Of a stretch of 49,190 nt of DNA, positions 409-45,092 are shown piece after piece. Position 1 is the stretch's first letter; the number at the start of each line of letters is the position of its first letter. A program made the translations under genes and the position numbers. The DNA comes from Tannerellaceae bacterium (GTDB lineage Bacteria > Bacteroidota > Bacteroidia > Bacteroidales > Tannerellaceae). The stretch is taken from assembly GCA_031264865.1 (NCBI GenBank), contig JAISDJ010000105.1, forward strand, positions 1 to 49,190. Reading direction: 5' to 3'. The notes under the pieces were generated by a model. That model saw only the letters and a list, made by a program, of their open reading frames with translations. It had not been told where the DNA came from and made no database searches.

Positions 409-1023
409 ATGAGTAATCATATTATATTAACCATTGGCCGGCAGTTTGGTAGTGGTGGACGTGTTATCGGTAAAAAATTAGCTGATGCGCTTGGTATATC
501 CTATTATGATAAAGAACTTATAATCCTTGCGGCAAAGGAAAGTGGATTATGTCCGGAAGTATTTGAAAAAGCAGATGAAAAGGCTTCCGATAGTTTAGCA
601 CATGCTTTTACAACGGGATTCTCTTATTTAAGTATGTTCACACCTTAGGCCGATATTTTGTCGAACGAGGGGCTTTTCAAAATACAAAGCGACTCTATCC
701 GCAAACTGGCTGAGAGGGAATCATCTGTAATTGTTGGTCGTTGCGCCGACTATATACTACGGGATAATCCCCATTGTATCAGTTTCTTCATACATGACAA
801 AATGGAGAACCGGGTACAACGGGTAGTGGAACGACAACAAATCACTGTCGAACAAGCGAAAGAATTAATTACCAAAACGGATAAATCCCGTGCTGCCTAT
901 TACGATTATTTCACAAACAAAACATGGGGTATGTCATCCTCTTATAATTTTTCAATTGATATATCTCTTTTAGGAATTGATAATACGGTTGAATTTATAA
1001 AAAACGTTATAGAAAGGATATAA
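409..1023 (+). pseudogene. Cytidylate kinase-like P-loop protein, interrupted by an in-frame TAG
   Basis: The reading frame from ATG 409 to TAA 1021-1023 codes for about 204 residues with one TAG at 646-648. Both halves are in the same frame and match the AAA_26-type cytidylate kinase-like family common in Bacteroidales: an N-terminal P-loop-like segment (TIGRQFGSGGR, residues about 7-17), then SGLCPEVFEKADEKA, and after the stop a VIVGRCADYILR segment. Family members would phosphorylate a nucleotide, but the substrate is not established. Total length is normal and neither half shows other decay. The lost residue is probably Tyr (TAC/TAT to TAG), inferred from memory of relatives. A near-consensus -7 element (TATTTTAG, 375-382) lies upstream. 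TTG 403 is an alternative start but ATG 409 is preferred. Confidence 0.75.
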
Positions 1024-11827: not shown

Positions 11828-11958
11828 CAGTTATGATTCTTTTGATTTATACAATCATCTTTCAATCTTACTAAGATAGTTATTTTTATCACGAAATATA
11901 CACGATTTCATCAATAATAGTTTTAAATGAATAAACTATTTCTTTTCGGTATGTTTGC

Positions 11959-11966
11959 TATCTTTG
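11959..11966 (+). promoter_or_regulatory. TATCTTTG -7 element that sets the miaA start
   Basis: An exact TAnnTTTG match 8 bp before ATG 11975. Transcription would begin near 11973, so the longer ORF start at 11927 cannot be used from this promoter and miaA mRNA would be essentially leaderless. Confidence 0.55.
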
Positions 11967-11974
11967 ACATCGGA

Positions 11975-12895
11975 ATGAAAACTTATCAACTAATTACCGT
12001 TTTAGGGCCAACGGCATCGGGTAAAACAAACTTTGCTGTGGCTTTAGCCAAACAGTTGAATACAGAGATTATCAGTGGCGATTCGCGGCAGGTGTACCGT
12101 TCCATGGATATCGGAACAGGAAAAGATTTGTCGGATTACGTCGTAAATGGCAAACAAATCCCTTATCATCTGATAGATATATGCGATCCCGGTTATAAAT
12201 ATAATGTGTTCGAATATCAACACGACTTCTTCCGTGTCTATAATGAGATAAAGGCTAAAGACAAACTTCCTATCCTTTGTGGTGGAACAGGAATGTATAT
12301 CGAGGCTGTCCTCAAAGGATTCAGATTACTTGATGTTCCCCAAAACCCGGAATTGCGGCATACATTAAAAGACAAATCACTGGAAGAACTTGAAATTATA
12401 TTAGCGAGTTATAAAGCGCTTCATAATAAAACGGACGTGGATACAGCTCAACGAGCCATCCGGGCTATCGAAATAGAAGAATACTACAAAAGAGAAGCGC
12501 CAGCAAAAAATGAATATGCCCCGGTTCATAGTCTTATAATCGGTATAGATATCGATCGTGAACTCCGTAGGGAAAAGATATCCAGACGTTTACAGACTCG
12601 GTTAAAAGAAGGAATGGTAGAAGAAGTAGAACGTATTCTGGCAACAGGTGTAGATCCCGAAGACCTTATCTATTATGGACTGGAATATAAATTTCTAACA
12701 TTATATATAACAGGTAAACTGATGTATGAAGATATGATCGCCCGGTTGGAAATCGCCATTCACCAGTTCGCAAAACGTCAAATGACCTGGTTTCGCGGTA
12801 TGGAGCGACGCGGATTCACTATCCATTGGATGGATGCCGGACTTCCGACAGAGGAAAAAATATCTCAGACAAAAATGTTATTAAATTTGTACTAA
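11975..12895 (+). CDS. miaA: tRNA dimethylallyltransferase
   Basis: A 306-residue enzyme that adds a dimethylallyl group to A37 of tRNAs reading UNN codons. The P-loop is GPTASGKT (about residues 10-17), followed by the DSRQVYRSMDIGTGK motif, the GGTGMYIEAVLKG motif and the C-terminal KRQMTWFRG, all diagnostic for MiaA. Length fits the family. The start at 11975 is chosen because the promoter element lies directly upstream and homologues begin with a short MKxx stretch before the P-loop. It is followed 10 bp later by kdsA and is probably co-transcribed. Stop TAA. Confidence 0.94.
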   Translation: MKTYQLITVLGPTASGKTNFAVALAKQLNTEIISGDSRQVYRSMDIGTGKDLSDYVVNGKQIPYHLIDICDPGYKYNVFEYQHDFFRVYNEIKAKDKLPILCGGTGMYIEAVLKGFRLLDVPQNPELRHTLKDKSLEELEIILASYKALHNKTDVDTAQRAIRAIEIEEYYKREAPAKNEYAPVHSLIIGIDIDRELRREKISRRLQTRLKEGMVEEVERILATGVDPEDLIYYGLEYKFLTLYITGKLMYEDMIARLEIAIHQFAKRQMTWFRGMERRGFTIHWMDAGLPTEEKISQTKMLLNLY

Positions 12896-12905
12896 ATTAG
12901 AGCTT

Positions 12906-13709
12906 ATGATAACAATAGACAAGTATAAAAACAATAAGAACTTCTTCCTCATGGCAGGACCATGCGTGATAGAAAATGAAGAAATGGCGTTGCAAATAGC
13001 TGAAAAGATAGGCGAAATAACTCATCGTTTGCATATTCCTTATATCTTCAAAGGGTCGTACAGGAAAGCAAACCGCTCACGGATTGATTCGTTTACCGGT
13101 ATTGGAGACTAGAAAGCGCTGAAGATACTTCGGAAAGTGAACGAAACATTTGATATTCCTACCGTTACGGATATTCATGAATCGGTAGAAGCAGCTATGG
13201 CGGCTGAATATGTAGATGTATTACAAATACCGGCGTTTTTGTGTCGGCAAACCGATTTATTAATGGCAGCTGCTAAAACAGGAAAGATTGTAAACATAAA
13301 GAAAGGCCAGTTTTTAGCTCCTTCGGGCATGCAATATGCCGCTCAAAAAGTAGTAGATGCAGGCAATAAAAATGTTATGATAACCGAACGAGGCGTTACT
13401 TTTGGCTATACGGATTTAGTTGTTGACTACAGAGGTATTCCTCAAATGCAAAAATTTGGATTTCCGGTTGTAATGGATGTAACTCATTCACTTCAACAAC
13501 CTAACCAATCATCAGGGGTAACAGGAGGAATGCCCGAATTAATAGAAACGATAGCCAAAGCAGCCATTGCCGTTGGCGCCGACGGACTATTTATCGAAAC
13601 TCATCCCGAACCAGGTAGGGCCAAATCAGACGGAGCCAATATGCTACGCCTTGACTTACTGGAAAGCTTACTTTTGAAATTAGTACGTATAAGAGAAGCT
13701 ATTCTATAA
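12906..13709 (+). pseudogene. kdsA: 3-deoxy-8-phosphooctulonate (KDO-8-P) synthase, interrupted by an in-frame TAG
   Basis: The frame from ATG 12906 to TAA 13707-13709 encodes 267 residues with one TAG at 13110-13112. KdsA condenses arabinose 5-phosphate with PEP to make KDO-8-phosphate for lipopolysaccharide. Conserved parts are intact on both sides: MAGPCVIENEE and FKGSYRKANRS before the stop, QIPAFLCRQTDLL, GQFLAPS, TERGVTFGYTDLVVD and DVTHSLQQPN after it. The residue at the TAG (context TGIGD-stop-KALKIL) aligns with a Glu of E. coli KdsA, so a single GAG to TAG change explains it. KdsA is essential in most Gram-negative bacteria, so loss is unexpected. Alternatives are sequence error, amber suppression or a second copy elsewhere. 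Confidence 0.85.
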
Positions 13710-14575: not shown

Positions 14576-16771
14576 ATGCAAACCGTTTTGAGAAAGCATT
14601 TGGTCATATTAGTGGTTATTTCTATTACTACCGTAAGCTACCAGTTACTCGCTGAAGAAGCTTATGCTGATGATTCATTGTCGAATTCCAAATCCAAGCC
14701 GGTAAAAGTTTTTCCAGTTGATTCTATCATGAAGTTAGTGATAGAGAGCGCTGTATCCTACCAAAATTACCTTGCCGGTGCCGAAACCGAGATTTATATC
14801 AAGGGCCGTACGGAAATACTAAAGCAAAATCAACTTATACGCCTGGCGCATCATCTTTTTCCTGTAGACAGAAAAGTAAAAGATATGGTTTTCGAAATGG
14901 TTAGCGATTCAAAATTCGAACCACCCAGTATATTTGCACATAATCTCAGAGCGATAAACGGAAGTAGTATCCCAAATAGAAAAAAACAACAAGAAGTCAT
15001 CAATTTCCTGAATTTTAATGTCTATGCTTCCACAGCATATAATGATGCTATTTTAATGCCGGTAGCCAAGAAAGCTTTCAAATATTATGACTTTAAACTA
15101 ATGGACATAAGTGATACTACAGGATTGAAGATATACCGTATACGTTTTCTACCCAAACAATTAAGCCCTAAATTAATCAGTGGCGATTTATATGTTATCG
15201 ACCAGGTATGGACAATCGACAAAATCGATATGAGCGGAAGGTACGCATTTTCCGACTTCAATTTGGTTATGACATATGGGAGGGGATTTAATCGGTTCAA
15301 TCTTCCGGAAACAGCAGACTTTTATGTCAGGTATCATGCGTTGGGAAATGCAGTAGCCAACTCTTACCATTCCCGTTTTAATTATAAGTCGGTTGTTTGG
15401 TCGCAAGAAGCAGGAAACAAAAGGAAACGCAGGTCTTCTTTAGATGTTAGCAGCTATTACACACTATCGTCTGATACGGTTCCTATCATCTTGGATACCA
15501 CTTATTGGCATCGTAAACGTGATATGTCTCTAACTGAAGAAGAAGAGACGCTTTATCAAAATGTAACAGATAAAAGACTACAAAAGTCTGATAGCTTAGA
15601 TGATGCCCAACAGTATCTAAAGCTTACGGAAAAATTAGTTAATTCATACACTTTCGACTATAAAACTACTCAAATCAGGTATTCAGGCCTGCTAAATCCG
15701 AGCCAGTTAGGATATTCTAAATTTAATGGTATTACGTACCGGCAACGCGTACGCTTATCTAAAGATTTTAAGAATGACAGACAATTACGTCTGCACCCTG
15801 AAATCGGATTTGTATTTAAGCGAAAAGAAATCTATTGGAAGTTATTGGGGGAATGGGAATATCTTCCTGAAAAATTCGGAATACTAAGTCTTGTTGCCGG
15901 TAATGGAAACCAAACCTATTCTCATTCCATGACAACATTCATTAATGAACAATTAAAAGACTCTATTATTGATGTTGATGATTTAGGATTACAATACTTC
16001 CGTCATTATTACCTCGAACTGAAAAATCGTATCGAGCTTTTTCACGGATTCCAGTTAATAGCTGGCCTTACTTATAATAATCGATCGCCTGTAAAGAAAG
16101 TAAACAACCCAAATCTCAGCCCAGAAATATTGAATGTTGCCAATAGCGATTACAATGATTTTACCCCTACTCTCGGATTTACATACACGCCGCGACAGTA
16201 TTATCGAATAGACGGTAAACGTAAATCTTATGTGTTTTCTTATTATCCTACCATATCGGTCGAATTTGCAAGGGCTATACCGGGAGTTTGGAAAAGCAAG
16301 GGAGATTTCACCCGTATAGAAGCGGATATTCATCAAAGTATATCCTTAGGACTGTTGCGAAGGCTTAATTATCATATCAGCACTGGGATGTATACCCGTC
16401 AGAAGTCTACTTACTTTGCTGATTTCCGATACTTTACCCGGCGTAATTTCCCCGACTCATGGGATGATCAGATTGGAGGTATATTTAATGTACTGGAAAG
16501 AGACTGGTTCAATGCTTCCGATAAATACGCACAGGCTCATTTTATGTTCCAAAGCCCTTTTATCTTTTTACAATTTTACAAAAAGGAGGCGTCTAAGTAT
16601 GTTTTTTATGAACGTCTGTATCTAAGCCAGCTTTGGACTCCGGAGCTACCCTGTTTCACGGAAATAGGATACGGTATCGGAAACCATATCTTTAATGTTG
16701 GCGTCTTTGCCGGATTCGACAAATACAAATATCAGAATTTCGGTGTTAAGTTCGCCTTTGAATTGTTCTGA
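14576..16771 (+). CDS. DUF5686-family outer-membrane protein
   Basis: A 731-residue protein with an N-terminal hydrophobic signal-like segment (HLVILVVISITTVSYQLLA, about residues 8-26). The region after it (SYQNYLAGAETEIYIKGRTEIL) and the central GLKIYRIRFLPKQLSPKLISGDLYVID are typical of DUF5686. The rest of the protein is rich in amphipathic beta strands and ends NFGVKFAFELF with a terminal aromatic, so it is expected as an outer-membrane barrel. Many relatives also carry a carboxypeptidase-regulatory-like domain at the N-terminus; I do not see one here. The gene has its own promoter (14557-14564), starts only about 5 nt after the predicted transcript start, and converges on the DUF1460 gene with adjoining stop codons. 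Function unknown. Confidence 0.8.
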   Translation: MQTVLRKHLVILVVISITTVSYQLLAEEAYADDSLSNSKSKPVKVFPVDSIMKLVIESAVSYQNYLAGAETEIYIKGRTEILKQNQLIRLAHHLFPVDRKVKDMVFEMVSDSKFEPPSIFAHNLRAINGSSIPNRKKQQEVINFLNFNVYASTAYNDAILMPVAKKAFKYYDFKLMDISDTTGLKIYRIRFLPKQLSPKLISGDLYVIDQVWTIDKIDMSGRYAFSDFNLVMTYGRGFNRFNLPETADFYVRYHALGNAVANSYHSRFNYKSVVWSQEAGNKRKRRSSLDVSSYYTLSSDTVPIILDTTYWHRKRDMSLTEEEETLYQNVTDKRLQKSDSLDDAQQYLKLTEKLVNSYTFDYKTTQIRYSGLLNPSQLGYSKFNGITYRQRVRLSKDFKNDRQLRLHPEIGFVFKRKEIYWKLLGEWEYLPEKFGILSLVAGNGNQTYSHSMTTFINEQLKDSIIDVDDLGLQYFRHYYLELKNRIELFHGFQLIAGLTYNNRSPVKKVNNPNLSPEILNVANSDYNDFTPTLGFTYTPRQYYRIDGKRKSYVFSYYPTISVEFARAIPGVWKSKGDFTRIEADIHQSISLGLLRRLNYHISTGMYTRQKSTYFADFRYFTRRNFPDSWDDQIGGIFNVLERDWFNASDKYAQAHFMFQSPFIFLQFYKKEASKYVFYERLYLSQLWTPELPCFTEIGYGIGNHIFNVGVFAGFDKYKYQNFGVKFAFELF

Positions 16772-44479: not shown

Positions 44480-44516
44480 AGGGAAGAGCGTTCTGCGAAT
44501 GTTCTTCCCTTTTTAT
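44480..44516 (+). terminator. Intrinsic terminator after rplY
   Basis: GGGAAGA (44481-44487) pairs with TCTTCCC (44503-44509) and the inner GCGTTC with GAATGT (two G-U), giving a 13-bp stem followed by TTTTTA. It lies 27 bp after rplY and contains the ATG (44499) of the longer pth frame, which rules that start out. Confidence 0.85.
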
Positions 44517-44528
44517 CTTATTGTAGTC

Positions 44529-45092
44529 ATGAAATATTTAATAGCCGGACTGGGTAATTTCGAGCCGCAATATTGGGGAACACGTCATAACATAGGGTTT
44601 CGTATCGTAAATGCTGTATCTGAAGACGCCGGTTCTCCTTTTACTGAAGCTCGTTACGGATCTGTATCCAAACTACGTATTAAAAATAAGGAACTGATAT
44701 TACTCAAACCGAATACGTTTATGAATCTTAGCGGGTTAGCTATCCGTTATTGGCTCCAGAAAGAGAGTATACCTATAGAAAACCTGTTGGTCGTTGTAGA
44801 CGATTTAGCCCTCCCTTTCGGCACATTACGCCTGAAACCAAAAGGAAGCCATGCCGGCCACAATGGTTTGCGTAACATTGAAGAAATTTTAAGCACACAG
44901 GAATATTGCCGATTACGCTTTGGCATTGGTAATGATTTCCCTCGCGGTGGACAGGTTGGCTTCGTTTTATCTCAATTCGATCCGGAAGAAATGGAAATCA
45001 TGCCCGAAAAGATTAAACAGGCTGTGGAAATGGTTAAAAGTTTCTGTCTGACAGGAGTTCAGGTTACAATGAATCAATTTAATAATAAGTAG
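44529..45092 (+). CDS. pth: Peptidyl-tRNA hydrolase
   Basis: A 187-residue enzyme that frees tRNA from peptidyl-tRNA. Family motifs are [21 protein letters not shown] (catalytic His in TRHNIGF), [12 protein letters not shown] and HNGLRNIEE. The start at ATG 44529 is chosen because the upstream ATG 44499 lies in a terminator; the resulting length is usual for Pth. It stops at TAG (45090-45092). The S4-domain gene that follows is in the same frame, nine bases later, so amber readthrough would fuse the two. Confidence 0.94.

Follow-up and report, generated by a model that had tools for sequence, protein, structure and literature searches.

According to PMC8629427, the bacterial stop codon reassignments known so far all concern UGA, and pseudogenes and contamination are named as sources of false recoding calls. 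The gene considered here is a predicted kdsA, a lipopolysaccharide gene of the KDO-8-phosphate synthase family TIGR01362, that carries one in-frame TAG. It lies in a window of 49,190 nucleotides, by which we mean the whole stretch of DNA that was analysed (G000:C42:1-49190), from a draft assembly (G000) that belongs to the same genus as Parabacteroides sp. PH5-46 (G001). KdsA is essential in most Gram-negative bacteria. Among the papers listed for kdsA nonsense mutations, amber suppression in Bacteroidetes, and assembly errors, none dealt with this case. The coordinates of the features discussed are collected in Table 1.

Table 1. Features of the window, with positions counted from its first nucleotide.
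Feature	Position	Strand	Basis or remark
kdsA, predicted KDO-8-phosphate synthase frame with one interruption	12906–13709	+	TIGR01362; NCBIfam on both halves; PDB KDO-8-P synthases
In-frame TAG, codon 69 of kdsA	13110–13112	+	Sequence and translation; 94 relatives stop-free
Longest mechanical ORF 3' of the TAG	13137–13709	+	GTG start, 190 aa, without the first 77 codons of kdsA
Cytidylate-kinase-like gene (PF13189) with one interruption; alternative start slightly upstream	409–1023	+	PF13189, 181.5 bits across the stop; orthologues intact
In-frame TAG inside the PF13189 gene, second of the contig	646–648	+	Relatives
miaA-like gene, intact, directly upstream of kdsA	11927–12895	+	Relatives align over the full length
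Peptidyl-tRNA hydrolase gene ending in TAG	44499–45092	+	PF01195 before and PF01479 after the TAG at 45090; S4-domain gene next, same frame

The kdsA frame begins with an ATG and ends with a TAA (positions 13707–13709), and the single TAG between them departs from the uninterrupted frame of the KdsA family. The preliminary description had placed this TAG at codon 69 with sound family sequence on either side, and both the sequence and the profile matches bear it out: the two halves, each searched separately, match positions 2–57 and 60–255 of the TIGR01362 profile (NCBIfam). Read through the TAG, the frame scores 393.2 bits against a curated cut-off of 314, so that by score it belongs to the family. 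The gene keeps every one of the 115 columns with a conservation of 95% or more among 94 relatives, and neither the sequence nor these columns revealed any further lesion or decay within kdsA. The TAG is located in the middle of the contig, away from its ends.

No stop was found inside kdsA among the 94 other loci compared. The residue at codon 69 is Glu in 82 of them, which agrees with the earlier proposal that a Glu was lost; it is Ile in five, Arg in three, and Gly, Met, Lys or Asp in one each. The Gly belongs to a close relative (G004), which thus also departs from Glu at this position. Across the taxonomic family, kdsA scores above the cut-off in 108 of 123 genomes, and the only one with a stop is that of the window; 107 of the 108 have one match above the cut-off and one (G084) has two. 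Among the matches listed from viral and phage collections, relatives of KdsA reach at most 63% identity.

The dN/dS values of kdsA are 0.055 against G017 and 0.034 against G004, and those of the neighbouring genes, where computable, range from 0.014 to 0.127. On these values kdsA is under purifying selection on both sides of the TAG and evolves like its neighbours, and the relaxed selection or additional lesion of a pseudogene is seen in neither the ratios nor the sequence. Since decay is absent and dN/dS falls within the range of the neighbouring genes, kdsA must have kept its function until very recently, if not to the present. Its DNA identity of about 85% to both G017 and G004 marks the window contig as genus-like.

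The search of the bin with the TIGR01362 profile gave five matches at four genes, kdsA included, and all the others were below the cut-off. Those on C13 and C31 were rejected as a second kdsA, being DAHP synthases according to NCBIfam, and that on C107 consists of two weak stretches; the second copy that the preliminary description had offered as an option was thus not found in the bin. The bin also has kdsB and waaA, each in two copies and free of stops.

It should be noted that the assembly is a draft of 4,688,347 bases in 376 contigs, with an estimated completeness of 94.08% and contamination of 6.86%. One of the two waaA genes (G000:C275 and C242) is 87.4% identical to that of G017 over 2117 bases, and the other is only about 64–72% identical to that of any member of the genus; each of four relatives carries a single waaA. 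Because the second waaA is distant from the genus and the relatives have one each, the bin evidently mixes two organisms, and at least one of the two waaA copies appears to come from another organism.

The kdsA TAG is not the only isolated stop in this genome. The claim in the preliminary description that there is no other lesion holds for kdsA but not for the contig, where the PF13189 gene is interrupted by a TAG as well. Among 13 aligned relatives the residue at this site is Tyr in ten, Ser in one and Glu in one, with a gap in one, and none of the matches listed from the genus has a stop in this gene. On another contig, a miaB gene, whose identity was settled by NCBIfam, carries a TGA (G000:C53:15870-15872) at a site that is Gly in two aligned relatives; the matches listed from G001, G002, G004 and G017 are without a stop. 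Another miaB-like frame, free of stops, is found on G000:C315. An AMP-ligase gene contains a TAA (C130:27873) 121 bases from a contig end, and a TAG at C1:10414, 127 bases from a contig end, is placed within a frame on the basis of one alignment of 131 residues, 63% identical to a frame of PH5-46, the C1 frame having no Pfam or NCBIfam match. Five interrupted genes are thus known in the bin (three TAG, one TGA and one TAA), two of which are less than 130 bases from the end of a contig, and all three kinds of stop occur singly in otherwise sound genes.

These genes emerged from scans of different kinds. In a dicodon scan covering 958,420 bases of the bin, 63 candidates came up in which the same frame continues across a stop (TAA 44, TGA 11, TAG 8). 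Pfam was applied to 46 of these and to two candidates from an earlier list; in four of the 46 (kdsA, the PF13189 gene, miaB and the AMP-ligase gene) the stop lies within one gene. Many others have different domains or families on the two sides of the stop and were rejected as interruptions, and several have no Pfam match on one or both sides. A codon-usage scan for hidden interruptions was too weak to use.

A homology scan compared 1,293,317 bases of the bin with 860,000 bases of PH5-46 and 63,034 bases of three other relatives. Its raw output of 15 rows covered ten positions, and seven of these were dropped: three on the opposite strand of a uvrB-like gene, three on the opposite strand of the gene at 14576–16771, and one that lies shortly before the start of an ORF (11833). 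In 58,412 aligned codons of the bin, three stops remained, all of them TAG (kdsA, PF13189 and C1:10414); those of miaB and the AMP-ligase gene were missed, apparently because no relative of either was present among the compared stretches. In the reverse direction, no internal stop was found in 52,231 aligned codons of PH5-46, nor in 11,157 codons of G017, G002 and G004. The difference between 3 of 58,412 and 0 of 52,231 (about 0.15 by codon share) is not significant alone. No stop interrupts any of the 63 ABC_tran matches of the bin, and none occurs among the Plug matches listed of a total of 115, which lie in frames mostly of about 1000 codons. Stops being rare in the bin at large, the two within 12.5 kb of the window contig form a local cluster.

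The translation apparatus offers a further test of how TAG is read. Release factor RF1 is intact (502 bits, without a stop), and among 807 frames with 200 codons or more TAA is the terminator in 529, TGA in 192 and TAG in 86. On the window contig itself, the TAG at 45090 works as a stop, since it separates the peptidyl-tRNA hydrolase gene from the S4-domain gene in one frame. The preliminary description had also raised the check for a CUA anticodon. None was found among the 39 tRNA matches in the bin, which come from a scan that left 83 of 233 first-look candidates unscored, and the tRNAs named include none for Asp, Phe, Trp or Ile. ARAGORN named 30 loci and seven of nine further ones, and the remaining two, read by eye, have no CTA anticodon. 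Genome-wide recoding of TAG was rejected on the intact RF1, the TAG terminators and the stop-free multi-copy families.

Overall, the data are best accommodated if the kdsA TAG arose through an error at a single base of the consensus, or by the consensus taking up a minority allele, in a draft assembly of the metagenome type, and we consider this explanation, which we rank first, to be the probable one. It is favoured because the bin, a draft of mixed origin, has isolated stops of three kinds in genes that are otherwise sound, as against none in the aligned codons of PH5-46. The signs of purifying selection, the intact conserved columns and the occurrence of a stop in only one of the 108 family genomes support it. 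Against it stand the position of the TAG in the middle of the contig and the rarity of stops across the bin, and the cluster on the window contig is left unexplained; the comparison of stops between the bin and PH5-46 does not reach significance by itself, and the further comparison comprised only 11,157 codons. The preliminary description had named readthrough and suppression, a further kdsA copy, and a sequence error as options. No second copy was found in the bin and no CUA tRNA among the 39 tRNA matches, and the isolated stops of all three kinds are best fitted by the sequence error, or by a broken allele that is rare. If so, the organism would very probably have a working kdsA and an ordinary KDO-8-phosphate synthase, and the reads, or most cells, would be expected to carry a sense codon at codon 69.

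A genuine and very recent nonsense mutation, which would leave KdsA inactive in the strain and imply either an altered lipid A or a short-lived variant, ranks second and is possible, if rather doubtful. Such a mutation would be expected to appear as one clean stop within a gene still under purifying selection, as it does here, and the contig has a further interrupted gene (PF13189); but KdsA is generally essential, the gene bears no decay or second lesion, and the rest of the pathway seems to be kept, kdsB and waaA being stop-free, with the reservation that each is present twice and at least one waaA is foreign. The absence of relaxation in dN/dS also speaks against the window copy being a dying duplicate of an intact second kdsA that escaped assembly or binning. 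The estimated completeness leaves room for a missing copy, but none was found in the bin and nearly all kdsA-bearing genomes of the family have one match, so that we regard this explanation as unlikely.

Readthrough of UAG, whether through near-cognate decoding or with the help of a suppressor tRNA, and with production of full-length KdsA, is unlikely. It would fit the fact that all three stops of the homology scan are TAG, two of them at Tyr positions of relatives, and the range of residues accepted at codon 69 (E, I, R, G, M, K, D) suggests that an inserted amino acid could be tolerated; a suppressor could also be among unassembled tRNAs, given the four amino acids missing from the named set. 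These points are opposed by the intact RF1 and the lack of a CUA anticodon among the tRNA matches, by the regular use of TAG as a terminator, including that of the peptidyl-tRNA hydrolase gene, by the TGA and TAA that interrupt genes in the same manner, and by the uninterrupted ABC_tran matches and listed Plug matches. In the most far-reaching version, a gut bacterium resembling Parabacteroides would decode UAG at a low level although it retains RF1, so that a small number of amber codons (in kdsA, the PF13189 gene and a third gene) are tolerated and full-length KdsA is still made; this seems to us very unlikely. Were it true, the decoding of UAG as an amino acid in an essential gene, with RF1 kept, would make it one of the rare examples of amber codons tolerated in nature. 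Nothing that we found points to special decoding of the kdsA TAG, and as it stands the case calls for caution: before a single stop in one conserved gene is put forward as recoding, stops of every kind in the same draft bin should be taken into account.

The window gene is a full-length match to the KdsA family across the TAG, with the conserved columns intact and the same gene in 94 relatives, and differs from the family by one in-frame TAG at codon 69. The kdsA of Parabacteroides sp. PH5-46 (NZ_JARXXA010000003.1) is 90.2% identical in protein over 266 aligned residues and shares with it a crp-like neighbour and the miaA-like neighbour, which we take to be miaA from family resemblance; unlike the window gene, it is stop-free. 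With the bacterial reassignments described in PMC8629427, the window gene has in common an in-frame stop in a conserved gene; the stop here, however, is UAG and not UGA, and the retention of RF1, the normal use of TAG at the ends of long frames and the lack of its recurrence within genes across the genome argue against a reassignment of UAG.
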